Assembly: GCF_009932555.1 (NCBI RefSeq)
Contig: NZ_BLJO01000003.1
Location: 1-64,000 of the forward strand
DNA length: 64,000 bases
Direction: 5' to 3'
DNA from: Steroidobacter agaridevorans
GTDB lineage: Bacteria; Pseudomonadota; Gammaproteobacteria; Steroidobacterales; Steroidobacteraceae
Part shown: positions 12,274 to 48,851 of the stretch, in pieces
How the letters are laid out: each line of letters begins with the position of its first letter
Position numbering within the stretch: position 1 is the stretch's first letter
Translations under genes and position numbers: made by a program
The notes under the pieces: generated by a model
The model's input: only the letters and a program-made list of their open reading frames with translations
Database searches by the model: none
Told to the model about the DNA's origin: nothing

Positions 12274-12290
12274 TATGTTCGTTGGCGAAC
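12274..12290 (+). promoter_or_regulatory. Possible third copy of shared element 1
   Basis: TATGTTCGTTGGCGAAC resembles the element at 1827-1845 and 7117-7135 and forms a GTTC-N6-GAAC palindrome. It lies about 90 bp before the small basic gene at 12379. Confidence 0.3.
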
Positions 12291-12378
12291 GGACGCCGTA
12301 TGACATTGATTACACACTGCAGGCTGTTGTCAGCATCACTGAAGCGCCGCATGCATCAATGATTGAAGGGGTGAACAC

Positions 12379-12501: not shown

Positions 12502-12576
12502 CAAATGCGTGCTGGGTCAGGGGAGCCCCGCAGTCGGAGCGCCTCCAGCGCTCCGACTTGGTTGTCGCTGCTGTGT

Positions 12577-13263: not shown

Positions 13264-13306
13264 ACAAGATTCCTCGATGTTAAAAAAATTCAGGGGCGCT
13301 TCGAGC

Positions 13307-13699: not shown

Positions 13700-13762
13700 G
13701 GAGAGGTCCTCGCGGATGGCTGAGATCGAGATGACCGCATGGAGAACCTCCCGTGTGGCGAA

Positions 13763-22327: not shown

Positions 22328-22344
22328 ATGTCAAATGTTGACAA
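22328..22344. promoter_or_regulatory. Agar-regulon operator A2
   Basis: The minus strand reads TTGTCAACATTTGACAT, differing from the copy at 27389 in two positions. It lies about 25 bp before the GTG start of the kinase gene, a position expected for repression. Confidence 0.6.
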
Positions 22345-22367: not shown

Positions 22368-23354
22368 GTGTCGACCTTGTCGAGTAAGTTCGAGGAGATT
22401 CTCAGGAATTGCGGCCTGTCCGACTGGCGCACAGTGCGTTCGGTGGAGCCGCTGACGGGCGGAGTCTCGTCGGACATTTACAAAGTGACGCTCGCCGGTC
22501 GTGTCGTCTGTGTGAAGAGCGCGCTGGCGCAACTGAAAACCGAAGAGCGCTGGTGCGCTCCGGTGCACCGGACTTTCGCGGAGTACCGATGGCTCTCGTT
22601 CGCCGCCGCTCAGTCGCGCGGCTGCGTGCCCCAAGTGTTGGGCTATGACTCCGTCAATCACGCAATCGTCATGGAATACCTGGCGGCCGGCGACAACACG
22701 ACGTGGAAGGAGCGGCTGCTCGCAGGTGACGTGTCCAAGCCATTCGCCGCGGAGGTGGGCGTGCGTCTATCTCTCATTCACGCGGCGTCCTTCCGAGAGC
22801 CTGCGTTCTTGAAGGAAATGGACCATGCCGAAGATTTTCGAGCATTGCGTGTGGAACCCTACTTGCGTTTTACGGCCGAGCGGGAACCTGCCGCAGCAGT
22901 GCAAATCCTGCACGTCGCGAAGCACCTCGAAGACGCGCGTTGCACCCTCATTCACGGTGATGTCAGTCCCAAGAACATTCTCTGCAGCGGGTATGGGCCG
23001 ATGTTCATCGATGCGGAATGCGCCACGCATGGCGATCCTGCGTTCGACGTCGCCTTCTGCCTGAATCATCTGCTCATCAAGGCTCAGCATCTGCCTGCCT
23101 GCGCGGGTGCGTTGAAGGCTGCGGCCGGCGTGCTGTGGCAGTCGTATGCAGCTGGTATCGATTGGGAAGCTCCCGAGAACCTGGAGCGACGCGTGGCGGC
23201 GCTCGTTCCGGCGCTGATGCTGGCGCGCATCTCCGGGAAGTCGCGCCTCGAATATTTGTTGCCTGCGACAGCACGGCTGGTGCGAGAGCAGGCATTGGAA
23301 TCGCTTACGAGCCCTCCGGGCGCACTGAGCGATCTCATCCGACCCGATAAGTGA
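22368..23354 (+). CDS. APH/choline-kinase-like small-molecule kinase
   Basis: About 328 residues with the protein-kinase-like APH fold. The catalytic loop is LIHGDVSPKNIL (Asp as base, Asn for Mg), followed by FIDAECATHGDPAFDVAF in the DFG-like position. The N-terminal lobe carries VCVKSAL with the ATP-binding Lys. Relatives phosphorylate hydroxyls of aminoglycosides, choline or sugars. GTG 22368 is preferred because the ATG at 22335 lies inside an operator. Gene order with an enolase paralog suggests a carbohydrate-derived substrate, not antibiotic resistance; that is inference. Confidence 0.75.
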   Translation: MSTLSSKFEEILRNCGLSDWRTVRSVEPLTGGVSSDIYKVTLAGRVVCVKSALAQLKTEERWCAPVHRTFAEYRWLSFAAAQSRGCVPQVLGYDSVNHAIVMEYLAAGDNTTWKERLLAGDVSKPFAAEVGVRLSLIHAASFREPAFLKEMDHAEDFRALRVEPYLRFTAEREPAAAVQILHVAKHLEDARCTLIHGDVSPKNILCSGYGPMFIDAECATHGDPAFDVAFCLNHLLIKAQHLPACAGALKAAAGVLWQSYAAGIDWEAPENLERRVAALVPALMLARISGKSRLEYLLPATARLVREQALESLTSPPGALSDLIRPDK

Positions 23355-23372
23355 TGCTTGTTGGATGACATC

Positions 23373-24707
23373 ATGAGCAACTCTGAGATTTCCGATGTAC
23401 AGGCGCGCCGCGTGTGGGATTCACGTGGCTTGCCGACGGTGGAGGTGGAGGTCCGAACAAGGAGCGGCGGTCTCGGGCGCGCGATCGCGCCGGCGGGGGC
23501 TTCCTGCGGGACGCACGAAGCCGTCGAACTTCGCGATGGCGGAGATCGACTCGGAGGCAAGGACGTCTCTCGCGCCGTCGCCAACGTCGAGGAATTGATT
23601 GCGCCAGCGCTTCGCGGCGTCGATGCGCGAGATCAATGTGGAGTCGACGCGAAACTGGATGGGCTGGACAGTTCCGGAGCGTTTCGCACGTTGGGAGCCA
23701 ACGCCAGTGTCGCGACTTCCCTGGCGGTGTTGCACGCCGGCGCACAATCGACGGGTGTTCCATTGTGGCGTCACGTTGCCGATACGTTCGACAGGGCGCC
23801 ATCGATTCCCCTGGCGGAGACGCAGATATTCGGTGGCGGTGCTCACGCGTCGGGCCGAGTGGACGTGCAGGACTTCATGATCATGGTGCCCGGCGCAGGC
23901 TCGTTCGACGAGTCGATGGTCGTGACCGCGGAAATCTATCGCGCCGCCGGTCGCTGCATGGCGGAGCAGGGGCGGCTGGCCGGTGTCGCTGACGAGGGCG
24001 GATGGTGGCCGAATTTCGACTCCAATGAGCAGGCACTGGATATGTTGATGCGGGCGATAGAGGCAGCGGGCGAAACCCCGGGAGAGCGCGTCGTGATCTC
24101 GCTCGACATCGCGGCCACGCAACTGCGTCACGGCAGCGGCTACAGGATGGCGCTCGAAGGCGCACTGCTCGACGCCGACGGCTTTTCGGAGCGAATTGCG
24201 CGCTGGATCGAGCGCTATCCCATCGTCGCGATCGAAGATCCGTTCGCCGAGGATGCTTACGAGAATTTCGCGCGCTTCCGGCAACGCACGGCAGCTATTC
24301 AGGTCGTCGGTGATGATTTGCTGGTGACGAATGCTTTGCGAGTGCGCGAGGCGGCGGCGGCGGGTGCCTGCAATACGGCACTGATCAAGGTCAACCAGGC
24401 CGGCACCGTGAGCAGAGCGGTTGCCGCGCTCGATGAGGCGCACCGAGCAGGGTGGCGCACGATCGTCTCGGCACGATCGGGTGAAAGCGAGGATGTCTCG
24501 ATCGTCCATCTGGCTGTCGGGCTCGGCGCCGGGCAGCTCAAGGTCGGCTCCTTCGCTCGCAGCGAGCGGATGGCGAAGTGGAACGAGTGCGTGCGTATCG
24601 AGCAGGCCTTGGGAAGCAAGGCTTTCGTGGCCGGTGAGCCGTTGACGAACACCTGGTGGGCACGATCCGGGCAGCGCGCCGCCAAATCGAGTAGTGGAGC
24701 GAATTGA
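23373..24707 (+). CDS. Divergent enolase paralog (role unknown)
   Basis: A 444-residue member of the true enolase family (RVWDSRGLPTVEVEV, ADEGGWWPN, LIKVNQAGT, GQLKVGS). The metal ligands (LDIAA, AIEDPF, VGDDL) and both active-site lysines are kept. Several substrate residues differ: the SGAST loop is AGASC, QEFMI is QDFMI, and SHRSGETED is SARSGESED, losing the active-site His. It is therefore unlikely to be the housekeeping glycolytic enzyme. It sits in an operon of kinase, enolase paralog, FAH hydrolase and SDR behind an agar operator, so it may eliminate water from a phosphorylated sugar acid (inference). Carboxyphosphonoenolpyruvate synthase is a precedent for enolase paralogs with new substrates. 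Confidence 0.8.
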   Translation: MSNSEISDVQARRVWDSRGLPTVEVEVRTRSGGLGRAIAPAGASCGTHEAVELRDGGDRLGGKDVSRAVANVEELIAPALRGVDARDQCGVDAKLDGLDSSGAFRTLGANASVATSLAVLHAGAQSTGVPLWRHVADTFDRAPSIPLAETQIFGGGAHASGRVDVQDFMIMVPGAGSFDESMVVTAEIYRAAGRCMAEQGRLAGVADEGGWWPNFDSNEQALDMLMRAIEAAGETPGERVVISLDIAATQLRHGSGYRMALEGALLDADGFSERIARWIERYPIVAIEDPFAEDAYENFARFRQRTAAIQVVGDDLLVTNALRVREAAAAGACNTALIKVNQAGTVSRAVAALDEAHRAGWRTIVSARSGESEDVSIVHLAVGLGAGQLKVGSFARSERMAKWNECVRIEQALGSKAFVAGEPLTNTWWARSGQRAAKSSSGAN

Positions 24708-24709
24708 CG

Positions 24710-25546
24710 ATGAAACTGATGCGCTATGGCGAGGCGGGTCGCGAGAAACCCGCGGTCCTGGATGCTTCCGGCAAGATCCGCGACGTGTCGTCCCTGGTGA
24801 GCGACTATGACCCGAGCACGCTCGGTGACGATCTCGTTTCGCGATTGAGGCAGGTGGAGGAACAGCCGGAAGTCACGGGCACTCCTCGAATAGGTCCGGT
24901 GCTGGCGAGAGTCGGCACGATCTGGTGCATCGGGCTCAACTACGTCGACCACGCGAAGGAGGCCGGCATGGCGGTGCCGACGGAGCCAGTTGTTTTCAGC
25001 AAGGCAGCCAGTACCGTCTGTGGACCGAACGATTCGATTCCGATCACAGCCGCGATGGCCAAGCTGGATTGGGAGGTCGAGCTGGGGGTCGTCATCGGCC
25101 GGCGCGCCTTTCGAGTGACCGAGGCGCAAGCGCTGGAGCACGTCTTCGGATATACCGTGGTCAACGACGTGTCCGAGCGCGCCTGGCAGCTCGAGCGGGG
25201 CGGGCAGTGGATGAAAGGCAAGAGTCATCCCAACTTCTGTCCCCTCGGCCCGTGGCTTGTGACGGGGGATGAAATTCCCGACTTGCAGTCGCTGCAGCTG
25301 TGGCTCGATGTCAACGCGGTGCCAAAGCAGCGTGGCAGCACCTCATCGATGATTTTCCCGGTCGCCAAGCTGGTCAGTTATCTGAGTCAGTTCGCGCGCC
25401 TGGAGCCCGGCGATCTCATCTGTACCGGCACGCCACCGGGCGTCGGAGCAGGCATGAAGCCGCCTCAATTCCTCCGCAGCGGCGATGTGGTGACGCTGGG
25501 CATCGAGCTGCTGGGCAAGCAGAAGCAGCGAGTGGAGAGCGCATGA
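24710..25546 (+). CDS. FAH-family diketo-acid hydrolase (diketo-deoxyfuconate hydrolase type)
   Basis: A 278-residue fumarylacetoacetate hydrolase-fold enzyme. The start MKLMRYGEAGREKPAVLD and the motifs CIGLNYVDHAKEAG, DWEVELGVVIG, VVNDVSERAWQ and LICTGTPPGVG are typical. Acidic residues of the metal site (DWEVEL) are present. It most resembles 2,4-diketo-3-deoxy-L-fuconate hydrolases, which split the product of the neighbouring SDR into pyruvate and a hydroxy acid. TTG 24704 overlaps the enolase stop; ATG 24710 fits the family start. Confidence 0.82.
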   Translation: MKLMRYGEAGREKPAVLDASGKIRDVSSLVSDYDPSTLGDDLVSRLRQVEEQPEVTGTPRIGPVLARVGTIWCIGLNYVDHAKEAGMAVPTEPVVFSKAASTVCGPNDSIPITAAMAKLDWEVELGVVIGRRAFRVTEAQALEHVFGYTVVNDVSERAWQLERGGQWMKGKSHPNFCPLGPWLVTGDEIPDLQSLQLWLDVNAVPKQRGSTSSMIFPVAKLVSYLSQFARLEPGDLICTGTPPGVGAGMKPPQFLRSGDVVTLGIELLGKQKQRVESA

Positions 25547-26265
25547 ACAGGATCGATCTGGAAGGGCGGATCGCGGTCGTGACCGGCGGGGCATCCGGCA
25601 TCGGCGCGGCGATTGCGCAGAATTTCATCGCGTCCGGTGCGACGGTCGTCATCTGGGATCTCGAGCGTGCCGAGCATCAGCTCGGCGAGTTCCTGACCAC
25701 CGATGTAGCCGACGAGTCGAGCGTCGGCAGCGCCATGCGCTTGACGATGGAGCGGCATGGCCGAGTCGACATTCTGGTGAACAGCGCGGGAATCGCCGGA
25801 CCGACGGCCAATACCTGGGAATATTCTCTCTTTGACTGGCAGCGGGTGCAGCGCGTGAACCTCGATGGCACGTTCCTTTGCTGTCGAGCGGTGGTGCCGG
25901 CGATGTTGCGGCACCGGTACGGCCGCATCGTCAACATAGCATCCATCGCCGGCAAGGAAGGCAACCCGAAGGCCGCCGCTTACAGCGCCTCCAAGGCTGC
26001 GGTCATTGCACTCACCAAATCGCTGGGGAAGGAACTTGCCGCCGAGCCCATCGCGGTGAATTGCATCACTCCGGCGGCGGCCAAGACGAAAATATTCGAC
26101 GCGGTGAGCGAAGACTTCATCACCTTCATGTTGTCCAAGATACCGCGCGGCCGCTTCCTCGAGGTGAGCGAAGTGGCCTCGATGGTCGCCTGGCTGGCGT
26201 CCACCGAGAACTCGTTTACGACGGGAGCGGTCTTCGATCTATCCGGAGGCCGCGCGACCTATTGA
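25543..26265 (+). CDS. SDR dehydrogenase (2-keto-3-deoxy-acid dehydrogenase type)
   Basis: A 240-residue classical short-chain dehydrogenase. It has the nucleotide-binding GGASGIGAAIA, NSAG in strand 4, a catalytic Ser in VNIASIAG and the YSASK motif. Its ATGA start overlaps the FAH stop, so the two are coupled. In the non-phosphorylating L-fuconate pathway an SDR oxidises the 2-keto-3-deoxy acid and the FAH enzyme cleaves it; the same pairing here suggests an analogous route for an agar-derived sugar acid. Substrate assignment is inference. Confidence 0.82.
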   Translation: MNRIDLEGRIAVVTGGASGIGAAIAQNFIASGATVVIWDLERAEHQLGEFLTTDVADESSVGSAMRLTMERHGRVDILVNSAGIAGPTANTWEYSLFDWQRVQRVNLDGTFLCCRAVVPAMLRHRYGRIVNIASIAGKEGNPKAAAYSASKAAVIALTKSLGKELAAEPIAVNCITPAAAKTKIFDAVSEDFITFMLSKIPRGRFLEVSEVASMVAWLASTENSFTTGAVFDLSGGRATY

Positions 26266-27388: not shown

Positions 27389-27405
27389 TTGTCGAATGTT
27401 GACAA
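27389..27405. promoter_or_regulatory. Agar-regulon operator B
   Basis: TTGTCGAATGTTGACAA on the plus strand, inside a larger GATTGTC-N7-GACAATC inverted repeat. It lies between the divergent aldose epimerase and the first TonB-dependent receptor and is the most symmetric copy. Confidence 0.65.
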
Positions 27406-27476
27406 TCGTGCATCTCAGAGTACCATGGAACCGCTGGTACTCAAGATCGATAGCAGTTTTTAGGGGGAAAAACGAA

Positions 27477-30233
27477 ATGGTTCACAGGCACCGTGCCCGT
27501 ACGACAAAGGTAGCCATTGCCGTTTCGGTGGCCATGGCGCAGGCAGCGACTGCGCAGGAGTCCACCACGGCGCTCGAAGAGGTCGTGGTCACCGGAATCA
27601 GGACGTCGCTGGAGTCCGCCACCGCGCTCAAGCGGGAATCTTCGGGTGTGGTCGACGCGATCACCGCGGAGGATATCGGCAAGTTTCCGGACACCAACCT
27701 CGCCGAGTCGTTGCAGCGAGTCACCGGCCTGTCGATCGATCGCTCCAACAACGAAGGCAATCAGGTCACCGTGCGCGGCTTCGGCCCGAGCTTCAACCTG
27801 GTGACCTTGAATGGCCGTCAGATGCCCAATACTTCCGCGCTGCAATCGGACGGCATTTCGCGCAGCTTCAACTTCCGTGAGCTCGCCTCGGAGTCCGTCT
27901 CGGCGGTGGAGGTGTATAAGACCGGCAGGGCGGACGTTCCCTCCGGCGGTATCGGCGCCACGATCAACATCAGAACACCGCGGCCGTTCGACTACGACGG
28001 ATTCACGACAGCGTTCAGCATCCAGGGTAATTCCGATAGCAGCGTGCGGACCGGGGATGACGTGACGCCCGAACTGTCGGGCCTGATCAGTCATACGTTC
28101 GCCGATGGCCGGTTCGGTGTTTTGTTGTCAGGCTCCGATTCCGAGCGTGACAGCCACAAGGACCGCCTGGGCACGCAGCAGGGCTGGCAGCGCAACTACG
28201 GAGTCGCCGATACGAGCGCCATCGACACTTCGCGCAATCCCACTCGAACCTACTGGACGCCGTTCACGATCGATCTCGACGATTGGAATTATCACCGCAC
28301 CCGGCAGAACGGCCAGGCCGTGCTGCAGTTCGCGCCTTTCGACGGGTTGACCGCGACGGTCGACTACAACGTGTCGAGGATCAAGGAAGACATCGACATG
28401 AACCGGCAGAGCTACTGGTTCGATCGTCCCAGCGGACGGACCGATGCCAACGGCACGATGGTGGAAATCGCCAATCCAAACGACGAGTTGAATTTCTGGG
28501 CTTGGAATTATTTGTTCGAGACGCACAACGATTCGATCGGGTTGAACCTGGAATGGCGGGCCACCGATACGCTGATCCTCAGTCTCGACGCGCACCAGTC
28601 GACTTCTCACTCGCAGCCGGACGGCCAGACATCGGAGACCATCGCCAATCTGAAGAATCCCGCGGGTAGCGTGCGGCTGATCGGCGCCAACTTCGACGGT
28701 CGCCTGCCAGAGGTGATCGTGGACGACTCGACGCTGCCTGGCGGCGCCTACAATTCCGATAACATCGTGGCGGATTTGTTCCAGAAGCGCGGCTACGAGA
28801 TGGAAAATGAGATTCGCCAGGTGCAGCTGCAGGCGCAATGGAACAACACCGACGGCGGCGCGCTCGAGCGCGTGGTGTTCGGCGTCGAAACAACCAAGTA
28901 TCAGATCGATACTCATCTGACTCAGACATTCGCCTTCGTCGATCCCGACTTCGCCGGCGTCGATCTGGATCTGTCGGGACTCGGGTTGAGCTTCATTCCC
29001 GGCGGTTACGGCGGCGGCAGTTTCCCGTTCATCCCGCAATACGATGCCGAGAGATTCCTGGATATCGTGCGCGATGCCGGGCTGTTCTACCTCAATCCTC
29101 CCACCGTCAACGGCGTCGAGGAGGACACGATGGCGGGTTATATCGCCACCGACTTCGCCACCACCTTCAATCAGCGGCCGGTGAAGGTGAATGTCGGGGT
29201 GCGCCTGGAGGATACCGATGTCACCTCCTATTCGGTCCAGAACAGCATCGCGAACCTCAACTACCGGCAGGCGGCGGAACTGCAAGTCGTGTACGACGAT
29301 GTTCCCAAGCGCCAGGAGCTGGAAGGCGGCTACACGTCCGTACTGCCGAATGCGGATTTCAGCATCGAGGCTACCGACGACCTGGTCGCGCGCTTCTCGT
29401 ACAGCCGGACTTTGTCCCGGCCCTCCATCGGTGGGCTCATTCCATCGCTGTCCATCAATGCACGCCCCAACGGCCCATTCATCGGATCGCAGGGCAATCC
29501 CGCGCTGCTGCCGCTCGAGTCGGACAACTTCGATCTGTCGCTGGAGTGGTACTACGCGAAGGGCAGCTATGCTTCGGTCGGCTACTTCCGGAAATACGTG
29601 GAGAACTTCATCGGGTCGACCGTGGTACGTCAGACCATCGACGACGTGAACGGTAATCCGTTGACCAATCCCAGCATCAATCCTCGGCCCGGCTGTCCGG
29701 ACGGATCGGCCACGCCGAATCCCGCGTGCTTGAATCAGCCCGGCGATCCCGCCATCACCTTCGATATTTCGACGTACGCCAATCTGAAGACGGCGGAGGT
29801 CGACGGGTGGGAGCTCAACCTGCAGCACATGTTCGGCAACTCCGGCTTCGGCGGCATCATCAATGCTACCCTCGTCAACAGCAATGTCGGCTTCAACCGC
29901 TACAGCTTCGAACAGTCGCTGGCGCTGACAGGTCTGGCGGACTCGGCCAATGCCGTCCTGTTCTATGAGAACTCGCGCTTTCAGATTCGCGCAGCATACA
30001 ACTGGCGCGACGATTTCCTGCTGTCGCTAGGTACCGAGCCGGTATTCACGGCGGAGTATGGACAGGTGGATCTCAGTGCCAGTTACCAGGTGACTCCGTG
30101 GATGTCGGTATTCGCCAATGCGCTGAATCTCACCGAGGAGGCAACGCACCGCTACGGCCGCTTCGAGAATCAGCTCGTCGACTACGAGGAGTACGGTCGG
30201 CGCTACGCTTTCGGTGTGCGCATGAAGTTCTGA
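27477..30233 (+). CDS. TonB-dependent receptor 1 (oligosaccharide uptake)
   Basis: A 918-residue outer-membrane receptor with a signal peptide (VAIAVSVAMAQAATAQ). The plug domain has LEEVVVTGIRTSLESATALK, AEDIGKFPDTNLAESLQRVT and VRGFGPSFNLVTLNGRQMP. A long beta-barrel ends RYAFGVRMKF with a terminal Phe. GGGGGA upstream supports ATG 27477. It is the Xanthomonas/Caulobacter glycan type without an N-terminal signalling domain. Position behind operator B suggests uptake of neoagaro-oligosaccharides. Confidence 0.92.
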   Translation: MVHRHRARTTKVAIAVSVAMAQAATAQESTTALEEVVVTGIRTSLESATALKRESSGVVDAITAEDIGKFPDTNLAESLQRVTGLSIDRSNNEGNQVTVRGFGPSFNLVTLNGRQMPNTSALQSDGISRSFNFRELASESVSAVEVYKTGRADVPSGGIGATINIRTPRPFDYDGFTTAFSIQGNSDSSVRTGDDVTPELSGLISHTFADGRFGVLLSGSDSERDSHKDRLGTQQGWQRNYGVADTSAIDTSRNPTRTYWTPFTIDLDDWNYHRTRQNGQAVLQFAPFDGLTATVDYNVSRIKEDIDMNRQSYWFDRPSGRTDANGTMVEIANPNDELNFWAWNYLFETHNDSIGLNLEWRATDTLILSLDAHQSTSHSQPDGQTSETIANLKNPAGSVRLIGANFDGRLPEVIVDDSTLPGGAYNSDNIVADLFQKRGYEMENEIRQVQLQAQWNNTDGGALERVVFGVETTKYQIDTHLTQTFAFVDPDFAGVDLDLSGLGLSFIPGGYGGGSFPFIPQYDAERFLDIVRDAGLFYLNPPTVNGVEEDTMAGYIATDFATTFNQRPVKVNVGVRLEDTDVTSYSVQNSIANLNYRQAAELQVVYDDVPKRQELEGGYTSVLPNADFSIEATDDLVARFSYSRTLSRPSIGGLIPSLSINARPNGPFIGSQGNPALLPLESDNFDLSLEWYYAKGSYASVGYFRKYVENFIGSTVVRQTIDDVNGNPLTNPSINPRPGCPDGSATPNPACLNQPGDPAITFDISTYANLKTAEVDGWELNLQHMFGNSGFGGIINATLVNSNVGFNRYSFEQSLALTGLADSANAVLFYENSRFQIRAAYNWRDDFLLSLGTEPVFTAEYGQVDLSASYQVTPWMSVFANALNLTEEATHRYGRFENQLVDYEEYGRRYAFGVRMKF

Positions 30234-32633: not shown

Positions 32634-33269
32634 TCAGGGGTGGGCTTTCAGGTGGGAGACGAAAGCGTCCGCTCGAGTCGCTACTTCGGCTGCTGTCAGG
32701 CCGGGGCGGAAGAGTGCAGATCCAATGCCGAAGCCATCCGCGCCTGCCGCGAGCCAAGTTGCCATGGTCTCGGGCGTGATTCCTCCGACAGGCAGTACGC
32801 GGGTGTCGCGAGGAAGGACCGCGCGCAGGGATTTCAATGCGGCTGGACTGCTTGCTTCGGCAGGGAACAGCTTCAGCGCGTGCACACCGGCTTCGATGGC
32901 GAGGAAACATTCCGAAGGCGTGCTCACACCCGGTACGCAAAGGATGCGCTGCGCAGCGCACGCCTGCACGATTCTAAGGTCCAGGTGCGGCGAGACAATC
33001 AACGATCCGCCGGCGGCGGCGACTGCCTCGATCTGCGCGACGCTCGTCACCGTCCCCGCGCCAACAACGGCTCTGCCTTCGAGTCGGCGTGCGATTCGTT
33101 CGATGCTTTCCAGCGGGCGCGGGGAGTTGAGAGGGACTTCGATGATCCTCAGGCCACATTGCCATAGCGTATCGCCTATGACTTCGGCTTCCTCGGGCGT
33201 GATGCCGCGGAGAATGGCGATCAGGGGACATTGAGCGAGTGCCGCGTTGAATTCGATCGAAGCTTTCAT
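32634..33269 (-). CDS. dgoA: 2-dehydro-3-deoxy-6-phosphogalactonate aldolase
   Basis: A 211-residue class I aldolase of the KDPG/KDPGal family. It has PLIAILRGITPEEAEVIGDT, EVPLNSPRPLESI (active-site Glu), VGAGTV, and the Schiff-base Lys in HALKLFPAE. It splits KDPGal into pyruvate and D-glyceraldehyde 3-phosphate. The NSP triplet favours the galactonate type (DgoA) over Eda. The start overlaps the kinase stop as ATGA; ATG 33275 is the alternative. It is the last gene of the leftward operon beginning at 39441. Confidence 0.88.
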   Translation of the reverse strand: MKASIEFNAALAQCPLIAILRGITPEEAEVIGDTLWQCGLRIIEVPLNSPRPLESIERIARRLEGRAVVGAGTVTSVAQIEAVAAAGGSLIVSPHLDLRIVQACAAQRILCVPGVSTPSECFLAIEAGVHALKLFPAEASSPAALKSLRAVLPRDTRVLPVGGITPETMATWLAAGADGFGIGSALFRPGLTAAEVATRADAFVSHLKAHP

Positions 33270-34150
33270 TGCCATTGTTCGTAAATTGCCAGACTTCCCG
33301 CCACGAAGGCGTGTTGGCTGTCGATGTGCACGACTTCCCGGCCGTGATGTTCCAGGGCCGCCGCATACAGGGGCGCGAGCGTCTGGTCGCTGAGGAGGTA
33401 GACGCGGCGGTCGGCCGCGCCTCGCAGGCAAACGGAGACTTCGCTGCCGATCAACAGTCCGCTTGCATAAGAGCTTGCGTCGCCATCTCGATCATCCTTG
33501 CGGACCGCGGCCGCGGCGCGAATCTCGAATAGCGCGCAGGTCAGGTCCATGCGCTCCGCGCGCTTGAGTCCGCAATGAAAGCCATCATCCGCGTGCGTCG
33601 GGCTCTTCAAATGCGCAGCGAGCAGGCTATGCGTTCGAAGCAGCGCGAACAACTCCCCTGTCATCGACGTGCTGAAGTCCACGATGCGACCGGCTTGGAT
33701 TTTGGCCCACTTGCTGTGGGTGCCGGGCTGACAGAACAGCCCGCTATCCGGTGTCAGGCCAGCGGCCGGCGCGCCAAGCAGCTGGACTTCCTCGCCGCGC
33801 ATGACGTCGACGTGGCCGTGAAGGTTCGTTGCCACGCCCGGGACGATTGCAGTCTGCGAATCGACGTGCAGGAGCTGTGACGAAATGCTCGCGATATCCG
33901 CGGGGCACTGTGCATACCCTGCTTGGTGCCAACCGATGTTCGAACCGATCATGCCGGCCAGAAGCATCGGATGATTTCCGAGTTCGTCGCGAATGGCCGC
34001 CACCTGGCCGGCATACGTGGTACGCGACGATATGGACACGCCTTCCTGCCGACGATGAGTCCTGGTGACTGCACCGTTCTCGATGAGATAGGCGCGTCGA
34101 TTGGTGGTACCCCAATCGACGGCGATGAATGATTCGGATGCACGCCTCAT
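33266..34150 (-). CDS. dgoK: 2-keto-3-deoxygalactonate kinase
   Basis: A 294-residue DgoK-type kinase. Signatures are AVDWGTTNRRAYLIENG, LAGMIGSNIGW, HGHVDVMRGEEVQLLGA and FCQPGTHSKWAKI. It phosphorylates KDGal at C6 with ATP, giving the substrate of the overlapping aldolase gene. KDGal is the meeting point of D-galactonate dehydration and 3,6-anhydrogalactonate cycloisomerisation, so this kinase serves both halves of agarose. Confidence 0.9.
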   Translation of the reverse strand: MRRASESFIAVDWGTTNRRAYLIENGAVTRTHRRQEGVSISSRTTYAGQVAAIRDELGNHPMLLAGMIGSNIGWHQAGYAQCPADIASISSQLLHVDSQTAIVPGVATNLHGHVDVMRGEEVQLLGAPAAGLTPDSGLFCQPGTHSKWAKIQAGRIVDFSTSMTGELFALLRTHSLLAAHLKSPTHADDGFHCGLKRAERMDLTCALFEIRAAAAVRKDDRDGDASSYASGLLIGSEVSVCLRGAADRRVYLLSDQTLAPLYAAALEHHGREVVHIDSQHAFVAGSLAIYEQWQ

Positions 34151-34175
34151 GTCTAAGATCGGTTCGACGAGCGCA

Positions 34176-35612
34176 TCAATACTTCATATAGACCGTGCGC
34201 TTTTGCATGTAGTTCTCGAGCCCGTACGGACCATCCTCGCCGCCGAGCCCGCTCAGCTTGTGTCCGGTGTGATAGCCGTGCACCGAGCCTGAGATGCCCT
34301 TGTTGACGAATACGGTGCCTGTCTGCAGCTCGCCGATCATTTGCATGATGGTCGAGTTGTCTCTGCTCCAGAGGTAGGCGGAAAGGCCGTCCTCGCGAGA
34401 ATTGACCAGTGCGACGGCTTGAGAGGCGCTGTCGATCGTGAGCACCGGCAGTACCGGACCGAATATTTCTTCCTTGATCACTGGCATCGTCGCCGTGGTG
34501 TCGACGATTACCGTCGGGGCGTACCAGTTGCCGCCTCGACGGCCCGGCACCTCCGGTCGCGTGCCGCCGAGCACGACCTGCCCGCCGGCTTGCCGCGACG
34601 CTTCGACCAGCGACGCCACTCGCTCGAGTGCTTGTGGCGTCGCCAGCGGGCCCATGTCGGGATCATCCATTGGATTGCCGACTTTGATGCGGCCGACCCG
34701 CGTCACCAGCTTGTCGATGAACTCCTGCGCGATGGCTCGGTGGACCAGCAGCATCTCGTTGCAGATGCAGACTTGTCCGGAGTTGCTGAAGCGGGCAACT
34801 GCGGCTGCTTCGACGGCGGCATCCACATCGGCGTCCGGCAGAACGATGAAAGGCGCTTTGCCCCCGAGCTCCAGGCTCAGCGCGGCCAGATTGCCTGCAG
34901 CCAGCTCCGCGACTTTCCTGCCGGCAGCGGCGCTGCCTGTGAGAGTAATCATCCGCGTCATGGAACTCTTGACGAGGGCCGCGCCTGTCGTGGCCCCGCC
35001 GCCCGTGACCATGTTGACGACGCCCGCCGGCACACCGACGCTTGCGACCAGCCTGCAGAACTCCGCTGCGGTCACCGGAGTGGCTTCATGCGGCTTGATG
35101 ACGATCGTGTTTCCCGTCACGAGGGCAGGGCCGACCTTGCGGCCGATCAGTGCGAGCGGATAGTTGTAAGCGCATAGGGCGACGACGACGCCATAGGGCA
35201 CACGGAAGGTGAACAGATGCTCGTTCGGGCTATCGGCCGGCCAGATGTCGCCACGCAACCAGCGTGCGGATTGAGCTGCGTAGCGCATGTAACCGATGGT
35301 GTCGGAAACCTCGGCATGCGCCTCGCGCAGCGTTTTGCCCTGTTCGCGGACCAGCAGTCGGGCGAAATGATCGCGGTCGGATTCGAGTGCCACACTGATT
35401 GCTTCGATGTATAGAGCGCGTTCGATGGCAGGCAGCGATTGCCATGCCTTCTGCGCTTGCGCGGCGGCGGCCAGGGCGGTCTGCGCGTCCTCGGGCGAGC
35501 AGTCCGGCACTTCCGCCCAGGGCTCGTTGTTGGAGGGGTCGACGACGGTAAGGCGACGCGCGTGCTGCGCATCGATCCAGCGCCCGTTGACGAAACAGCG
35601 ATAGTAGTCCAT
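34176..35612 (-). CDS. Aldehyde dehydrogenase, candidate 3,6-anhydro-L-galactose dehydrogenase
   Basis: A 478-residue NAD(P)-dependent aldehyde dehydrogenase. It has LGGKAPFIVLPDADVDAAVE with the active Glu, SNSGQVCICNEM with the catalytic Cys, and EEIFGPVLPVLTI. ATG 35612 starts MDYYRCFVNGRWID. It resembles lactaldehyde-type enzymes. Agar-degrading bacteria use such an enzyme to oxidise 3,6-anhydro-L-galactose to the acid; with dgoK, dgoA and an enolase superfamily enzyme alongside, that role is the best guess. Confidence 0.83.
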   Translation of the reverse strand: MDYYRCFVNGRWIDAQHARRLTVVDPSNNEPWAEVPDCSPEDAQTALAAAAQAQKAWQSLPAIERALYIEAISVALESDRDHFARLLVREQGKTLREAHAEVSDTIGYMRYAAQSARWLRGDIWPADSPNEHLFTFRVPYGVVVALCAYNYPLALIGRKVGPALVTGNTIVIKPHEATPVTAAEFCRLVASVGVPAGVVNMVTGGGATTGAALVKSSMTRMITLTGSAAAGRKVAELAAGNLAALSLELGGKAPFIVLPDADVDAAVEAAAVARFSNSGQVCICNEMLLVHRAIAQEFIDKLVTRVGRIKVGNPMDDPDMGPLATPQALERVASLVEASRQAGGQVVLGGTRPEVPGRRGGNWYAPTVIVDTTATMPVIKEEIFGPVLPVLTIDSASQAVALVNSREDGLSAYLWSRDNSTIMQMIGELQTGTVFVNKGISGSVHGYHTGHKLSGLGGEDGPYGLENYMQKRTVYMKY

Positions 35613-35616
35613 GCCT

Positions 35617-36462
35617 CTAACTCTTCGTTGCGGTTTCAGTGGCTTTGCGCCGAGGATCGACGGTGGCTCCAGCCATGATGATCTGATTTTGCAGCTTCGC
35701 GACGTGCTCGTGAAACTGCTGCTCCTCTGCGCCAAAATCTCGGCGCGGCACCTGCTCCATGTCGAAGTTCCCGTGGCGATCCCTGCCACGCACAAGTGTG
35801 GCCGTGTCGCGATTCCCGCTCAGCTGGCGGACGTGCGGCGGGAGATAGCGGATGGCGAATCCGATGCGACGCCGATCCGAGACATTGGAACCCGAGCCAT
35901 GAATCATGCGCACGTGATGCAGCGACATCTGGCCGGGGTCGAGAGTCAAGGTCATCGCGGTGGCGGGATCCACCTTCACGGCGATTTCCTGGCCGCGTGA
36001 AAGCATATTCGCCGAATCGAAAGTATCGATGTGCGGGCGCTGATCGAGTGCGTGACTGCCGGGAACCACGCACAACGCCCCGTTCTGTGAGTTGCTCTCC
36101 GACAGGGCGACCCAGGCAGTGACGACATCGGCCGGGTCGAGTCCCCAGTAGGTCGAATCCTGGTGCCAGGAGACGAACCCCGGATGACGCGGCTCCTTGA
36201 TGAAGAGCGTCGTGCCCCAGACCAGGATGTCATCGCCAATGAGGGCGCCGACGGCGTCGAGAATCGTGTCCTTGCGGATGAGATCGTTCAGCCAAGTGAA
36301 CAGCAGGTGAGGGTTGTTGCGATGAGCGGGGGATAGTGGACCGTGCGCTGCTTCGTGCGCGTCGAGGTGCGCGCGCATGGATGCGGCTTCCGCCTCGTTC
36401 AGCACAGTGATCGGTGCGTAGTAACCGTCGATCTCATACCGGGTGCGTATATCTGATTTCAT
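35617..36462 (-). CDS. PhyH-family Fe(II)/2-oxoglutarate dioxygenase
   Basis: A 281-residue phytanoyl-CoA dioxygenase-family protein. The iron site is WHQDSTYWGL (His-x-Asp) with the distal His in MSLHHVRMIHGSGSN and the 2-oxoglutarate Arg in DRRRIGFAIRYL. Such enzymes hydroxylate or oxidatively demethylate small molecules. ATG 36462 is chosen since the longer frame overlaps the SDR gene. It lies inside the anhydrogalactose operon, five bases from the aldehyde dehydrogenase, so the substrate is probably a modified sugar; this is inference. Confidence 0.82.
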   Translation of the reverse strand: MKSDIRTRYEIDGYYAPITVLNEAEAASMRAHLDAHEAAHGPLSPAHRNNPHLLFTWLNDLIRKDTILDAVGALIGDDILVWGTTLFIKEPRHPGFVSWHQDSTYWGLDPADVVTAWVALSESNSQNGALCVVPGSHALDQRPHIDTFDSANMLSRGQEIAVKVDPATAMTLTLDPGQMSLHHVRMIHGSGSNVSDRRRIGFAIRYLPPHVRQLSGNRDTATLVRGRDRHGNFDMEQVPRRDFGAEEQQFHEHVAKLQNQIIMAGATVDPRRKATETATKS

Positions 36463-36499
36463 GATGCGTGGTCGACTGTCAACTGGAGCGCCGGCGACT

Positions 36500-37267
36500 T
36501 CATCGACCCATCCATCCGCCATCCACCACCAGAGTGGTGCCGTGAACGTAGCGTGCAGCGTCGGAGGCGAGGAAGACTACCGGGCCGGCGAAGTCCTCTG
36601 GCTCGCCCCAGCGACCGGCCGGAATGCGGGCCAGGATCGCTTCGGAACGGACGGCGTCGCTGCGCAGGGCTGCGGTATTATCCGTCGCGATGTAGCCGGG
36701 AGCGATCGCGTTTACGTTCACGCCCCGCGAGGCCCACTCATTGGAGAAGGCCATCGTGAGCTGCCGGATGCCGCCTTTGCTGGCGGCGTAGCCTGGCACC
36801 AGGATGCCTCCTTGAAAAGACAACAGGGAGGCGGTGAAGATGATCTTGCCGCCGCCGTGCTGAACCATGCGTCGGCCAATTTCTCGCGTCATCACGAACT
36901 GTGCTCTCAGGTTCACCTCGAGAACCTGGTCCCAGTACTCGTCGCTGTGCTCGGCTGCCGGCGCGCGTAGGATCGTGCCTGCATTGTTGACCAGGATGTC
37001 GATGCGCGGGTGCGCCTGCATGACGCTCGAGATCGCCGCATGCAGTGCACCACGGTCAGCGAAATCGCATTTGTATCCTGTGAACGAGCGCGAAGTTGCG
37101 CGTACGCCTCGGGCGACTGAGTCGGAATCGGGGTCGAGCGACGCGGACATGCCGATGATGTCCGCGCCCGCTTCGGCGAGGCCGATGGCCATCGCCTGGC
37201 CGATGCCTCTTCGGCAACCGGTAACGAGCGCGACCTTGCCGCTCAGATCGAAGGATTGGATGCTCAT
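36500..37267 (-). CDS. SDR dehydrogenase, KduD-like
   Basis: A 255-residue short-chain dehydrogenase: TGCRRGIGQAMAIGLAEAGA, NNAGT, a Ser in FTASLLSF, YAASKGG, and the C-terminal GTTLVVDGGWMG. It is closest in pattern to 2-keto-3-deoxygluconate/2-deoxygluconate 3-dehydrogenases (KduD). Its ATGA start overlaps the stop of the alcohol dehydrogenase. It probably oxidises or reduces a keto sugar acid in the pathway. Confidence 0.83.
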   Translation of the reverse strand: MSIQSFDLSGKVALVTGCRRGIGQAMAIGLAEAGADIIGMSASLDPDSDSVARGVRATSRSFTGYKCDFADRGALHAAISSVMQAHPRIDILVNNAGTILRAPAAEHSDEYWDQVLEVNLRAQFVMTREIGRRMVQHGGGKIIFTASLLSFQGGILVPGYAASKGGIRQLTMAFSNEWASRGVNVNAIAPGYIATDNTAALRSDAVRSEAILARIPAGRWGEPEDFAGPVVFLASDAARYVHGTTLVVDGGWMGR

Positions 37268-38283
37268 GCGCGGCACTCCAAAAGCGTTTTCATGCCGGCC
37301 TGGCCGGTATCGAGCATCTCGAAGGCGCGCTGGACGTCCGCAAGCGGCCGGACTGATGTAATCAAGGGGTCGACCGGAATCTGTCCGCTGGCGATCAGCT
37401 CGATGGCGCGGTCGAAATCCTCGGCCTGGTAGACGCGCGCACCGAGCAGCTCCAGTTCGCGCCAGAAGAAACGAAACAGATCGACGGGCGGCTGGGACGA
37501 ATGGATCGCGACCATGCAGATGCGGCCGCGTACCGCGGCGATCTTGGTCATCATCTGTACAGTTTGAGGCACGCCCGCGACTTCAAAGACAACATCGGCG
37601 CCCTTGCTTCCGGTCCACGCCTCCACGTGCTCGGCAAGATTCGCGCCGGTGGGATCGAAGACCTCGATGCCGGCGTCGGCGGCATAAGTCCGACGCAACG
37701 CATGCGGCTCGGAGACCAGAACGTGCGCCCCGAGCGCTTTGCCCACGAGAGCAATGAGCTGGCCGATGGGCCCGCCGCCGAGTACGACGGCTCTCTCGCC
37801 CGCTCGAAGGCGTGAGCGTGCTACGTCATGGCAGGCTACAGCCAGCGGCTCCACGAGCGCCCCGCGTTTCAAATCGACGTTGTCGGGCAGTCGGTGCAGG
37901 CTGCGCGCCTTGACGGTCCAGTACGACTGGAGTGCGCCGGTGCTATCGACACCCATGAACTTGAGTCGATGGCAGACATGAGAATGGCCTGCAGTACACG
38001 CCGGGCAGGAGCCGCAGTAGTCGAGCGGGCGGACGACGACGTTGTCGCCGACGGCGAAGCCCTTGACCGACTCGCCGAGCACGGCGACCGTGCCGGACAT
38101 TTCATGTCCGATGATGCCGGGGGGATGGACGCGATGATCCATCTTGCCGTGGTAGATGTGCAGATCGGTGCCGCACAGCCCGACATATGCAACGCGCAAT
38201 GTGACTTCATCCGGCGCCGGTTGCGCCATGTGGCCGACGCCGATCTCGAATCGACGGTTGCCCAGGTACTCTGCTTTCTGCAT
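37264..38283 (-). CDS. Zinc-dependent MDR alcohol/sugar dehydrogenase
   Basis: A 339-residue medium-chain dehydrogenase. It has GLCGTDLHIYHG and GIIGHEMSG for the catalytic zinc, CGSCPACTAGHSHVC for the structural zinc (four cysteines), and VLGGGPIGQLIALVGKALGA for NAD(P). Family members oxidise sorbitol, threonine or galactitol-like polyols. Here it could oxidise D-galactose or L-galactonate; this is not decidable from sequence. It is co-transcribed with the genes on both sides. Confidence 0.85.
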   Translation of the reverse strand: MQKAEYLGNRRFEIGVGHMAQPAPDEVTLRVAYVGLCGTDLHIYHGKMDHRVHPPGIIGHEMSGTVAVLGESVKGFAVGDNVVVRPLDYCGSCPACTAGHSHVCHRLKFMGVDSTGALQSYWTVKARSLHRLPDNVDLKRGALVEPLAVACHDVARSRLRAGERAVVLGGGPIGQLIALVGKALGAHVLVSEPHALRRTYAADAGIEVFDPTGANLAEHVEAWTGSKGADVVFEVAGVPQTVQMMTKIAAVRGRICMVAIHSSQPPVDLFRFFWRELELLGARVYQAEDFDRAIELIASGQIPVDPLITSVRPLADVQRAFEMLDTGQAGMKTLLECRA

Positions 38284-38292
38284 GACAGCTGA

Positions 38293-39441
38293 CTATCCTT
38301 CGTGAACCAGATACGGCTTCAGGCGCGCAAAGTCGAACTCGACGCCGGTGCCGGGAACCTCGGGCGCGGTGGCGATGCCATTCGCGACCTCGAACGGGCG
38401 GTGCGTGTACTCATCGATGGGGAAGGAGTGCACCTCGAGCAATGAGGCGTTCGGCTGAGCGGCCATGAGCGACACGTGAAGCTCGTGCATGCCGTGACTG
38501 GCGACTTTCAGACCATGTAATGCGGCATGTCGCGCCACCTCCAGCCAGCCGGTGATGCCGCCGAGATTGGACGCGTCCGGCTGCAAATAACCGAGGCGCG
38601 CATGACGAATGGCCTCACGGAATTCGGCGAACGTTCGCAGGTTCTCGCCGGAGGCGAGTGGAATATCCACGGCCTGTGCAATCGCTGCGTAGCTGTCGAA
38701 GTCGTGGGGGTCGACCGGCTCCTCGAACCAATGCAGCCGGGCGCCCGCCACCTCTTTCGCGAATGCGATGGCGGTGCTGGCGTCCCAACTGTAGTTGGCG
38801 TCGGCCATCATGACCGCTGCCGGGCCGATCACGTCGCGCACGCGACGCACTCTGCGAACGTCGGTCTGGTAATCGGGACGGCCCACTTTCAACTTGATGC
38901 CCGTATGGCCGCGAGCGATCTCTGCGGCGACAACTTCCACCAATTGTTCCTCGGAGAAGCCGAGGTCGATGAGTCCACGGTAGCAAGGCACGGTGTTCGC
39001 GTGGCCGCCTGCGACGCGCCACAAAGGCTGGCCCAGGCGTCGGCAGTGCAGGTCCCACAGAGCCACGTCGACGGCCGAGATCGCGAAGCCCACGACGCCG
39101 CCGCAGCCGAGGTAATGCAGACTTTGCCGCATTTTTTTCCACAGACCGGCAATGTCGGCGGAGTTCGCTCCATGCAGCAAGCCAGCGATCTCATCGCGCA
39201 ATAGCGCTCGAATCGCGGTGCCGCCCTTGCCGCCCGTGTAGGTGTAACCGACGCCGCATGCGCCGTCGGCGCAGTGCACTTTGCTGATCACCAGCTCGAA
39301 ATGCGTGTGGTCGCCGTGGCCCGCGTCGACCAGGACCTGACGCAGCGGCACGCGGTACAGCAGATTTTCGATGCGGACTATCTGGGTTGCCCGGCTGTTG
39401 CGGGATATTTCGTCCGCGGCCGCGTCGGTTGGTGTTTGCAT
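38293..39441 (-). CDS. Mandelate racemase-type enolase superfamily dehydratase
   Basis: A 382-residue enolase superfamily enzyme of the mandelate racemase subgroup. The KxK base is in HTGIKLKVG, metal ligands are in MMADANYSWD, FEEPVDP and SGENLR, and the second base is in ASHGMHELH. It should dehydrate or epimerise a sugar acid such as galactonate. It is the first gene of the leftward operon that ends with dgoK-dgoA, and its ATG is only 10 bp from operator C1. It differs in subgroup from the enzyme at 45402. Confidence 0.83.
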   Translation of the reverse strand: MQTPTDAAADEISRNSRATQIVRIENLLYRVPLRQVLVDAGHGDHTHFELVISKVHCADGACGVGYTYTGGKGGTAIRALLRDEIAGLLHGANSADIAGLWKKMRQSLHYLGCGGVVGFAISAVDVALWDLHCRRLGQPLWRVAGGHANTVPCYRGLIDLGFSEEQLVEVVAAEIARGHTGIKLKVGRPDYQTDVRRVRRVRDVIGPAAVMMADANYSWDASTAIAFAKEVAGARLHWFEEPVDPHDFDSYAAIAQAVDIPLASGENLRTFAEFREAIRHARLGYLQPDASNLGGITGWLEVARHAALHGLKVASHGMHELHVSLMAAQPNASLLEVHSFPIDEYTHRPFEVANGIATAPEVPGTGVEFDFARLKPYLVHEG

Positions 39442-40584: not shown

Positions 40585-40594
40585 CTTGTGTAGA

Positions 40595-45358: not shown

Positions 45359-45405
45359 CGATTGACCACATGGCGGCGTTCTACGTGCAGCAGTACGGCA
45401 AATGA
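45355..45405 (+). CDS. 16-codon bridging micro-ORF
   Basis: MTIDHMAAFYVQQYGK starts at an ATG overlapping the SDR stop (ATGA) and ends at a TGA overlapping the ATG of the next gene (ATGA). It fits a link for translational re-initiation across the 43-bp gap. Whether the peptide has a role is unknown. Confidence 0.35.
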   Translation: MTIDHMAAFYVQQYGK

Positions 45406-46547
45406 AAATCAGCGATGTCACGGCCTTTGCGATCAACGCGGGCCATCGAAATATCTGTCTGGTGAAGGTCGACACCGACGCCGGAATCGCCGGGTGGGGC
45501 GAGGCGGGGCTGTCGAGCCGGGAGCAGGCCGTCGCGGGCATGGTCCGTCACTTCAAGGAATTCCTGGTGGGAAAAGACGCCACGCGTATCGGCGCCATCT
45601 GGCAGGAACTGTATCGCGGCCAGTATTTTGAGGGCGGCCGCACGATCACCGCGGCGATCTCCGCGATCGACATCGCGTTATGGGACATCGCAGGCAAGGC
45701 GCTGGGCGTTCCGGTGCACCGATTGCTGGGCGGCATGCAGCGCGATCGCATCCCTTGTTTCATCACCAGCACGGCGCCGATGGATGACCGTCTGATCGCC
45801 GACGGAATCGCGCTGCGCGATCTGGGTTGGGACTGCATTCGCGCAACCATCGCGGGCCGCGGTGACGAGTCGATCTTCGATCCTCGCAAGGCGTTGGCCC
45901 AGGCGGCGACGGCCCTGACGGAGCTTCGCACGGCGCTGGGCAGCAGTATCGTCCTGGGCATCGACTTTCATCACCGGCTGCAGGTCGCCGAGGCTGCGTC
46001 GTTCTGTCAGCGCATGCCGCCGGGGACGTTGGATTTCCTGGAGGAGCCGATTCGCCAGCAAACGCCCGGGGCATACCAGGCGCTGAAGCACATGACTCAG
46101 ATCCCTTTGGCCATTGGTGAAGAGTTCGCATCCCGCTGGGATTTTGCGCCGTACATCGAACAGGATATAACGAGCTTCGCACGCATCGACGTCTGCAACG
46201 TCGGCGGCCTCAGCGAAGCCATGCGCATTGCCTCGCTGGCCGAAACTCACTACATCGACGTGATGCCGCACGATCCGCTGAGCCCGCTCTGTACGGCGGC
46301 CACCATACAACTATGTGCCGCGATACCCAACCTCGCCTGGTGCGAAGTCGATCCCTACGGTCTCGACACGTCGGCGTACGATCGTCTGTTTCCAGTGCGC
46401 CCGCGCCTGGAGGGAACTCACTTCCTGGTGAATCAGTCCCCCGGTCTGGGCATCGAGGTCGATGAGTCCGCGGTGCGCTCGGCGAGCTTCTCGTACTGGG
46501 AGCCGCCGCGCCGCTACAAGCCGGACGGTTCTTATACAAACTGGTGA
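45402..46547 (+). CDS. Enolase superfamily enzyme, candidate 3,6-anhydrogalactonate cycloisomerase
   Basis: A 381-residue mandelate racemase/galactonate dehydratase-type enzyme. It has ISAIDIALWDIAGKALGVPV, metal ligands in LGIDFHHRL, FLEEPI and IGEEF, and the catalytic His in VMPHDPLSPLC. The DFH...H arrangement is that of galactonate dehydratases and the known 3,6-anhydro-L-galactonate cycloisomerase, which turns the anhydro acid into KDGal. With an aldehyde dehydrogenase and dgoK/dgoA nearby, that role is favoured; galactonate dehydratase is the alternative. Confidence 0.83.
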   Translation: MKISDVTAFAINAGHRNICLVKVDTDAGIAGWGEAGLSSREQAVAGMVRHFKEFLVGKDATRIGAIWQELYRGQYFEGGRTITAAISAIDIALWDIAGKALGVPVHRLLGGMQRDRIPCFITSTAPMDDRLIADGIALRDLGWDCIRATIAGRGDESIFDPRKALAQAATALTELRTALGSSIVLGIDFHHRLQVAEAASFCQRMPPGTLDFLEEPIRQQTPGAYQALKHMTQIPLAIGEEFASRWDFAPYIEQDITSFARIDVCNVGGLSEAMRIASLAETHYIDVMPHDPLSPLCTAATIQLCAAIPNLAWCEVDPYGLDTSAYDRLFPVRPRLEGTHFLVNQSPGLGIEVDESAVRSASFSYWEPPRRYKPDGSYTNW

Positions 46548-48827: not shown

Positions 48828-48851
48828 TGTCGACTGTTGACAATTGACAAG
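48828..48851. promoter_or_regulatory. Agar-regulon operators E1 and E2 (overlapping)
   Basis: Two overlapping copies: minus-strand TTGTCAACAGTCGACAG (48828-48844) and TTGTCAATTGTCAACAG (48835-48851). They lie about 95 bp before the second receptor gene. Confidence 0.6.

Follow-up and report, generated by a model that had tools for sequence, protein, structure and literature searches.

The 64,000-nucleotide stretch of Steroidobacter agaridevorans DNA analysed here (the window) carries four open reading frames (ORFs) in a row on one strand, with short gaps or overlaps between them. Their layout and Pfam domains bear out the original prediction that an operon joins a kinase and a divergent enolase to a hydrolase of the FAH family and a short-chain dehydrogenase/reductase (SDR). 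All four are listed below with the operator ahead of them; the substrates named for the kinase, the enolase and the SDR are those we infer.

22329..22343, + strand: operator TGTCAAATGTTGACA, 0 mismatches, ahead of the kinase operon and shared with other agar-locus promoters
22368..23354, + strand: APH-fold small-molecule kinase, predicted glycerate 2-kinase (PF01636; HGDVSPKN and DAE motifs)
23373..24707, + strand: type I enolase paralog, predicted to act as a dehydratase of 2-phosphoglycerate, possibly in its L form (AGASCG, FGGGAHA, QDF, DEGGWWP, IEDP, SARSGE, KVGSFARSER)
24710..25546, + strand: FAH-family acylpyruvate hydrolase, relative of 2,4-diketo-3-deoxy-L-rhamnonate hydrolase (LRA6) (FAA_hydrolase, NF053535, 8gsr)
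25543..26265, + strand: SDR, predicted 2-keto-3-deoxyaldonate 4-dehydrogenase (PF13561, adh_short_C2, 188.4 bits; adjoins an LRA6-like FAH here and in relatives)

Peristeroidobacter agariperforans KA5-B is 100% identical to the window in its kinase, enolase, FAH, GalM, TonB receptor and PhoD-like ORFs. Other genomes and kinase-centred loci are given G and L labels below, G000 being the window's own genome.

The kinase scores 69.7 bits against APH (PF01636, cut-off 23.2) and has the HGDxxPxN and DxE motifs of that superfamily, with H196, D198, N203, D215 and E217 invariant across eight aligned relatives. In a Pfam search at E 0.001 it matched only APH and RIO1 and no MOFRL/GK2 or GarK domain, the plant-type third class of glycerate kinase lying outside this test. 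Among solved proteins it matches methylthioribose kinase, and its score against the equivalog for that enzyme, TIGR01767, is 51.6 bits, below the cut-off of 275. The GTG at 22368 (residue 12 of a longer frame) is a likelier start than the ATG at 22335, because the ATG lies in the operator and the alignments of six relatives begin only at residues 11-15 of the longer frame.

Enolase is among the most conserved of enzymes; the paralog nonetheless passes the curated cut-off, with 423.7 bits against the equivalog TIGR01060 (cut-off 300), 266.5 bits against Enolase_C and 147.3 bits against Enolase_N. In alignments with PDB 4yws and with the genome's own core enolase, it retains the metal ligands (aligned D245, E288 and D314) and both active-site lysines (K339 and K390), as had been predicted, and the positions aligned with H159, E211 and S39 are kept as well. 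The predicted motif changes (SHRSG to SARSG, SGASTG to AGASCG, QE to QD) are seen in the same alignments, where the substitutions read H373A, E168D, S36A and T40C and the asparagine of INGG is lost (yeast enolase numbering). Hence the E168 and H373 that canonical enolase requires are both replaced, the paralog having QDF and SARSGE where the core enzyme has QEF and SHRSGE. In the enolase site, both positions are on the side of the 3-hydroxyl and E211. Changes at H373 of yeast enolase cost most of its activity on 2-phospho-D-glycerate. The canonical copy (G000:C3:767363-768211) lies on the same contig and is 41.7% identical to the paralog, which is not the sole enolase of the genome.

Enolases linked to the kinase are of two types, which form separate groups in unrooted trees. 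Type I enolases mostly have PAGAS, FGGGAHA, DEGG[WY]WP and IEDP, and type II enolases, found in Rhodococcus, Methylobacterium, Sphingobium and others, mostly have PSGAS, LSGGxHA and DEGGLSPG. Across eight positions compared in 36 type I and 4 type II rows, the changes common to both relative to the own core enolase are H373A, E168D, the NGG asparagine to G or S, and the T after K396 to V or I. All 54 distinct SARSG enolases from kinase-centred loci have A373 and D168 and all 12 other enolases of the set have H373, the rows having been picked by a motif that allows any residue at 373 and misses MSHRSG enolases, with position 168 unread in three of the 12. A further 12 enolases of the MSHRSG type all have H373 and E168. 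Two changed catalytic residues are what might be expected of a decayed or moonlighting enolase that has no metabolic role, but the metal ligands, the lysines and a long signature are conserved alongside the kinase, Bacteroidota included, and we regard decay as very improbable.

Kinase searches covered 196 genomes from the order (with 18 matches under the default limit, seven of them below 1e-60, own genome included), 398 genomes of the phylum (nine matches), 199 of family f60 (28), 248 of family f71 (16) and plasmids (32 records). In the plasmid records inspected, relatives of the paralog are annotated as phosphopyruvate hydratase. A paralog-enolase profile run over the 398 Pseudomonadota genomes gave nine matches of at least 597 bits, the next being 526 bits. 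The type I paralog is present in 9/9 kinase genomes and in 0/389 others (Fisher p 1.6e-18), or in 8/8 with the own genome left out (p 7e-17); these counts are for type I, as type II enolases score below canonical ones and cannot be singled out by this profile. Each of the nine also has a second enolase match in the same search. Of the 64 kinase loci collected (63 distinct, L029 being the same as L108), 52 have the paralog no more than 9 kb from the kinase, and the pair occurs in at least three phyla, Pseudomonadota, Actinomycetota and Bacteroidota. The kinase and the altered enolase form a module.

The genes around this module differ. In the first context, that of the window, it is accompanied by FAH and SDR, and in many cases by LacI and a CUT1 sugar transporter as well; the kinase, the paralog and an LRA6-like FAH are found together at 12 loci (the window, L047, L048, L081, L088, L089, L090, L131, L133, L134, L135 and L141). 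The window FAH scores 246.9 bits against FAA_hydrolase (cut-off 23.9) and 357.9 bits against the LRA6 equivalog NF053535, below the cut-off of 500; its nearest solved structure is 8gsr (281.6 bits). Two more LRA6-like FAH genes in the own genome (G000:C2:292025-292855, 56% identity; G000:C1:813829-814662, 54%) possibly serve deoxy-sugar routes. A second context, in Novosphingobium, in family f60 and in L046, combines D-specific-family 2-hydroxyacid dehydrogenase (2HADH), alpha/beta hydrolase, acyl-CoA ligases and TonB receptors. A third, LysR–PEP carboxylase–2HADH–kinase and an enolase gene close by (PEP, phosphoenolpyruvate), is found in L043, L044 and L076; the L043 PEP carboxylase ORF (11828-13762, - strand) matches its profile only from position 263, and the L044 orthologue is full length. 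Rhodococcus has FAH–2HADH–type II enolase–kinase–FAH. In a fifth context the pair is found with TRAP and PhyH genes, together with a 3-hydroxyisobutyrate-dehydrogenase-family protein in L137 and with GntR, PEP-mutase-family and Fe-dependent alcohol dehydrogenase (ADH) genes in L079. A sixth is seen in Persicobacter sp. JZB09 (Bacteroidota), where AraC and aldehyde dehydrogenase (ALDH)–kinase–enolase genes lie divergent from PfkB–FucI-like–class II aldolase; within the same 40-kb stretch are also GH2, GH3, KDPG aldolase and further PfkB kinases, as well as an ALDH that shares 54% identity with the window's. The FucI-like protein has no solved relative and scores 28.8 bits in Pfam, just under the cut-off of 29.3. 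Persicobacter is a genus with a known agarolytic member (PMC5300873). Finally, in 19 loci the paralog was the sole gene recognised close to the kinase, and in 5 there was none.

Several further associations were seen at individual loci. CysD and CysNC sulfate-activation genes lie downstream of the paralog in L022, L023 and L027 (genus g32), and an alkylsulfatase and an FGE gene flank the pair in L045. VOC, cupin and alcohol dehydrogenase genes make up a shared cassette that occurs with 2HADH, kinase and enolase in L076 (Rhizobium), L080 (Cupriavidus), L093 (Paraburkholderia) and L178 (Sphingobium), two of them with an NADPH oxidoreductase. Beside the kinase of L030 (8793-9923) is a conserved alpha/beta-hydrolase-like protein that has homologues in other loci; it has no Pfam match at cut-off and no solved relative, and the L046 homologue passes Hydrolase_4.

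In the original prediction, the kinase would phosphorylate O2 of a sugar acid and the enolase would remove the 3-hydroxyl, replacing an aldonate dehydratase ahead of the SDR and FAH. Kinase and enolase do lead the operon, and E168D and H373A would shorten side chains that presumably lie beside C3. However, 7 of the 12 FAH-type loci (the window, L047, L048, L088, L131, L134 and L135) have dehydratase-family genes (IlvD or MR/MLE) within or close to them; every genome scanned for dehydratases has several IlvD genes, and therefore only nearness counts. IlvD (PF00920, 344-347 bits) is found in L134, in L135, where FAH and an SDR flank the gene within the operon, and, for L047, at a distance of 9 kb downstream from the kinase (in L083). 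Two IlvD genes (386 and 310 bits) lie beside L131. The window has a gene for an MR/MLE protein (PF13378) 22 kb off, L048 and L131 have such genes too, and an MR/MLE protein is annotated at the edge of L088. A dehydration step by kinase and enolase would be redundant at these loci, and for this reason we place the pair last. Against this placement, and in keeping with the original route, four of the 12 (L089, L090, L133 and L141) have no dehydratase in the DNA examined, the nearest MR/MLE gene of the L133 and L141 genomes being ~22-25 kb off, and the sole candidate at L081 is a UxaA gene ~22 kb away. No enzyme that would remove the enol phosphate was recognised in the operon, and the PEP carboxylase/2HADH and ALDH/aldolase contexts have no visible aldonate route, which makes it improbable that the pair acts first on an aldonate. 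What stands is that a noncanonical enolase, not the genome's only one, goes with a kinase in the agar regulon and has an SDR–FAH pair as neighbours, in a route not found in the literature searched; the earlier interpretation is partly supported.

The same PEP carboxylase/2HADH and ALDH/aldolase contexts suggest that the pair lies downstream of a C3 product. At FAH loci, cleavage of a hexonate-derived 2,4-diketo acid would yield glycerate. At Persicobacter-type loci, aldol cleavage of a ketose 1-phosphate would yield glyceraldehyde, which ALDH could oxidise to glycerate. The 2HADH and the reductase-like protein of the 3-hydroxyisobutyrate dehydrogenase family might form glycerate from hydroxypyruvate or tartronate semialdehyde, and PEP carboxylase would consume the PEP formed. 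As the FAH, PEP carboxylase, TRAP–PhyH and Persicobacter contexts share one plausible metabolite, glycerate, the pair probably converts glycerate to PEP, whichever the enantiomer. The variety of neighbours elsewhere (alpha/beta hydrolase and acyl-CoA ligases in Novosphingobium-type loci, CysD/CysNC in g32, alkylsulfatase and FGE in L045, VOC and cupin in Rhizobium-type loci) could also reflect a different 2-hydroxyacid, such as a glycerate substituted at C3 or one that loses an ether, sulfonate or amine group instead of hydroxide, with FAH loci one of several uses; the enolase changes, presumably on the C3 side, would fit this. Yet cleavage of the diketo acid by FAH and aldol cleavage of the ketose phosphate both yield an unsubstituted C3 unit, and PEP carboxylase suits PEP itself, so that the prospect of such a substrate seems slim.

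The question of which enantiomer is used leads to the agar locus, whose other features in the window are these.

27390..27404, + strand: operator, same pattern, exact, where the divergently oriented genes for GalM and the TonB receptor begin
33266..38283, - strand: rest of the cycloisomerase operon (Zn-ADH, KduD-like SDR, PhyH, ALDH and DGOK-family kinase), a possible second fate of 2-keto-3-deoxy-L-galactonate
38293..39441, - strand: likely 3,6-anhydro-L-galactonate cycloisomerase, which would make 2-keto-3-deoxy-L-galactonate (best solved match 5xd7, 366.9 bits; best differently named entry 275 bits)
45402..46547, + strand: MR/MLE-family protein resembling galactonate dehydratase (NF010624 268.8 bits, below the cut-off of 311; 3rr1 209 bits)
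48828..48842, + strand: operator, same pattern, exact, upstream of the ORF at 48844

The pattern TGTCRANTGTTGACA matches exactly (0 mismatches) at 22329, 27390 and 48828, the first site agreeing with the prediction that an operator common to the agar locus precedes the operon. With 1-2 mismatches it recurs at 39453 and 39472 (the cycloisomerase/SGL gap) and at 40589/40596 (the start of the ORF at 40586), and outside the agar locus once, at 63766. In all, 12 match rows were observed against 0.54 expected, and at least 12 in 0/100 shuffles, for a pattern that was derived from its three exact sites and with several of the rows being one site on both strands or overlapping. The shared operator sequence suggests that the kinase operon belongs to the agar regulon, which we assign to agar because of the cycloisomerase-like ORF. 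Two palindromes considered earlier as the operator, TTGACATNNATGTCAA and ATGTCAANNTTGACAT, showed no excess over shuffles and were replaced by the wider TGTCRANTGTTGACA motif. L048 mirrors the window's locus in having a halogenase-like gene, TonB receptor, GntR, MFS, GalD, SGL and cycloisomerase, and both L047 and L048 have another palindrome, GTTCACGTGAAC, beside LacI genes. The window's flavoprotein (30334-31878), which resembles a tryptophan halogenase, and its TonB receptor (27396-30233) are conserved as a pair in L048 (2255-6815; 60% and 55% identity). Genes for PhyH-type 2-oxoglutarate-Fe oxygenases occur in the window (35617-36522, - strand), L079 (6247-7155) and L137 (5040-5987), in the last two adjoining the kinase–enolase pair; the three proteins are only 22-29% identical to one another, over partial lengths.

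In the pathway we propose, the cycloisomerase would open agar-derived 3,6-anhydro-L-galactonate to 2-keto-3-deoxy-L-galactonate, the SDR would oxidise C4 of this compound, and FAH would split the resulting 2,4-diketo acid into pyruvate and glycerate. The APH-fold kinase would then phosphorylate the 2-hydroxyl of glycerate, and the modified enolase would take off the 3-hydroxyl to give PEP. L-glycerate is expected in the agar locus because C5 of the L-hexose becomes C2 of glycerate. An inverted C2 would swap the alpha-proton and the CH2OH group, to which H373A and E168D would be suited. The L enantiomer is favoured by the presence of the cycloisomerase in the same regulon and by the origin of FAH's nearest solved relative, 8gsr, in an L-sugar route; in addition, a MOFRL glycerate kinase is already present in four of the six FAH-type genomes tested (G262, G835, G997 and G977). 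A sugar-acid pathway in which the pair acts last, as an L-glycerate 2-kinase and an enolase for 2-phospho-L-glycerate, is our tentative choice, held at somewhat under even odds and with substrates, phosphorylation site and handedness all predicted. We are more hesitant about the broader proposal, which is possible but doubtful, that types I and II share H373A/E168D as a switch and make up an enantiomer-switched subfamily turning 2-phospho-L-glycerate from an APH-fold L-glycerate 2-kinase into PEP.

Several observations count against the proposed pathway or its L enantiomer. The two FAH-type genomes that lack MOFRL are the agar-type ones, the own genome and G546, and in the own genome no other recognised glycerate kinase turned up among the MOFRL and GarK types searched; G546 has no GarK-type kinase either, and in both the kinase could therefore be an ordinary D-glycerate kinase. 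2HADH genes lie near the kinase in 28/64 loci and would give D-glycerate, which a normal enolase handles. The cycloisomerase operon holds the KduD-like, ADH and DGOK genes for the usual route. According to PMC2063504, class II glycerate kinases accept L-glycerate at 13-34% of the D rate (three kinases tabulated). The paralog is not within 9 kb of the kinase in 12/64 loci (11 genomes); seven of these genomes encode a SARSG enolase at another site (type I in G609, G619 and G673; type II in G659, G631, G653 and G698), and four (G664, G598, G621 and G610) show a canonical enolase only. In G653 (L190) and G698 (L191), drafts of 320 and 630 contigs, a type II enzyme (SARSGE) is the only enolase found, and either the assembly lacks the canonical gene or type II is able to function in glycolysis. 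An AlphaFold model of the paralog from three sequences had a mean pLDDT of 53, too poor for inspection of the site, and was not used.

These points bear on the alternative that a D-glycerate 2-kinase of a new family feeds a dedicated, differently tuned enolase isozyme at the same place in the pathway, converting 2-phospho-D-glycerate to PEP. The 2HADH, 3-hydroxyisobutyrate-dehydrogenase-family and PEP carboxylase neighbours would suit it, as would the type II-only drafts and the survey of 18 kinase genomes, in which MOFRL is lacking from 10/18 and a GarK-type kinase from 18/18. Nevertheless, a MOFRL kinase is also kept by 8/18, the own genome has a canonical enolase and each of the nine kinase genomes a second match, and H373 and E168, the former needed for most activity on the D compound in yeast, are altered in every kinase-linked enolase examined, in two lineages. 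We consider the D-glycerate alternative unlikely on balance, although our confidence in L-glycerate is lowered by the D-type 2HADH counts, the distribution of MOFRL and the type II-only drafts.

If the L-glycerate proposal is correct, the kinase would be, as far as the literature searched goes, the first dedicated to L-glycerate, known ones using it as a side activity (PMC2063504), and the paralog would be, within the same literature, the first enolase to have switched the handedness of its substrate. A direct route from L-sugar-derived L-glycerate into central metabolism would be open to bacteria in at least three phyla. This would complete the carbon balance for agar and other L-sugar routes and explain the pairs of 'aminoglycoside phosphotransferase' and 'eno' genes in Rhizobium, Rhodococcus, Paracoccus, Roseibium, Novosphingobium and others. 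With D-glycerate as substrate, there would still be a new glycerate kinase family and a marked enolase isozyme. In a partial literature search (titles and abstract openings), we found no L-glycerate-specific kinase, no 2-phospho-L-glycerate enolase, and no such agar route or kinase–enolase pair. 2-Phospho-L-glycerate itself appears in PMC13228409 as a reagent and a poorer substrate of a cytidylyltransferase.

Parts of the scheme resemble several known systems. The L-rhamnose/L-fucose oxidative route has a like SDR and FAH pair, but the C3 product expected here has a 3-hydroxyl. With LRA5/LRA6-type enzymes that route ends in lactate and needs no such kinase or enolase. In Vibrio sp. EJY3, the later steps of 3,6-anhydro-L-galactose catabolism are a C5 oxidation/reduction to KDG, with no SDR–FAH–kinase–enolase tail. 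Its cycloisomerase step to 2-keto-3-deoxy-L-galactonate, as given in PMC11219438, is alike. A fungal 2-keto-3-deoxy-L-galactonate route in the same paper also has an L-configured C3 product, but proceeds by an aldolase to L-glyceraldehyde, which is reduced to glycerol; in this paper on L-/D-2-keto-3-deoxygalactonate catabolism, no word starting 'glycerate' occurs in the text searched. The GK2/MOFRL and GarK glycerate kinases carry out the 2-phosphorylation proposed here and have no domain in common with the window kinase. Canonical enolase (EC 4.2.1.11) is like the paralog over the whole fold, judged by sequence, and in the metal ligands and the K345/K396, E211, S39 and H159 equivalents, and the paralog differs from it in H373A, E168D, the lost NGG asparagine, DEGGWWP, IEDP, KVGS and its kinase partner. 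The nearest known logic is the tail of the non-phosphorylative Entner-Doudoroff pathway of Thermoproteus tenax, in which, according to PMC2063504, glycerate is converted to 2-phosphoglycerate and then by enolase to PEP; there the kinase is of the MOFRL/GK2 class, preferring D-glycerate (L at 30%), and the enolase is the common one, whereas here an APH-fold kinase is partnered by an altered enolase.

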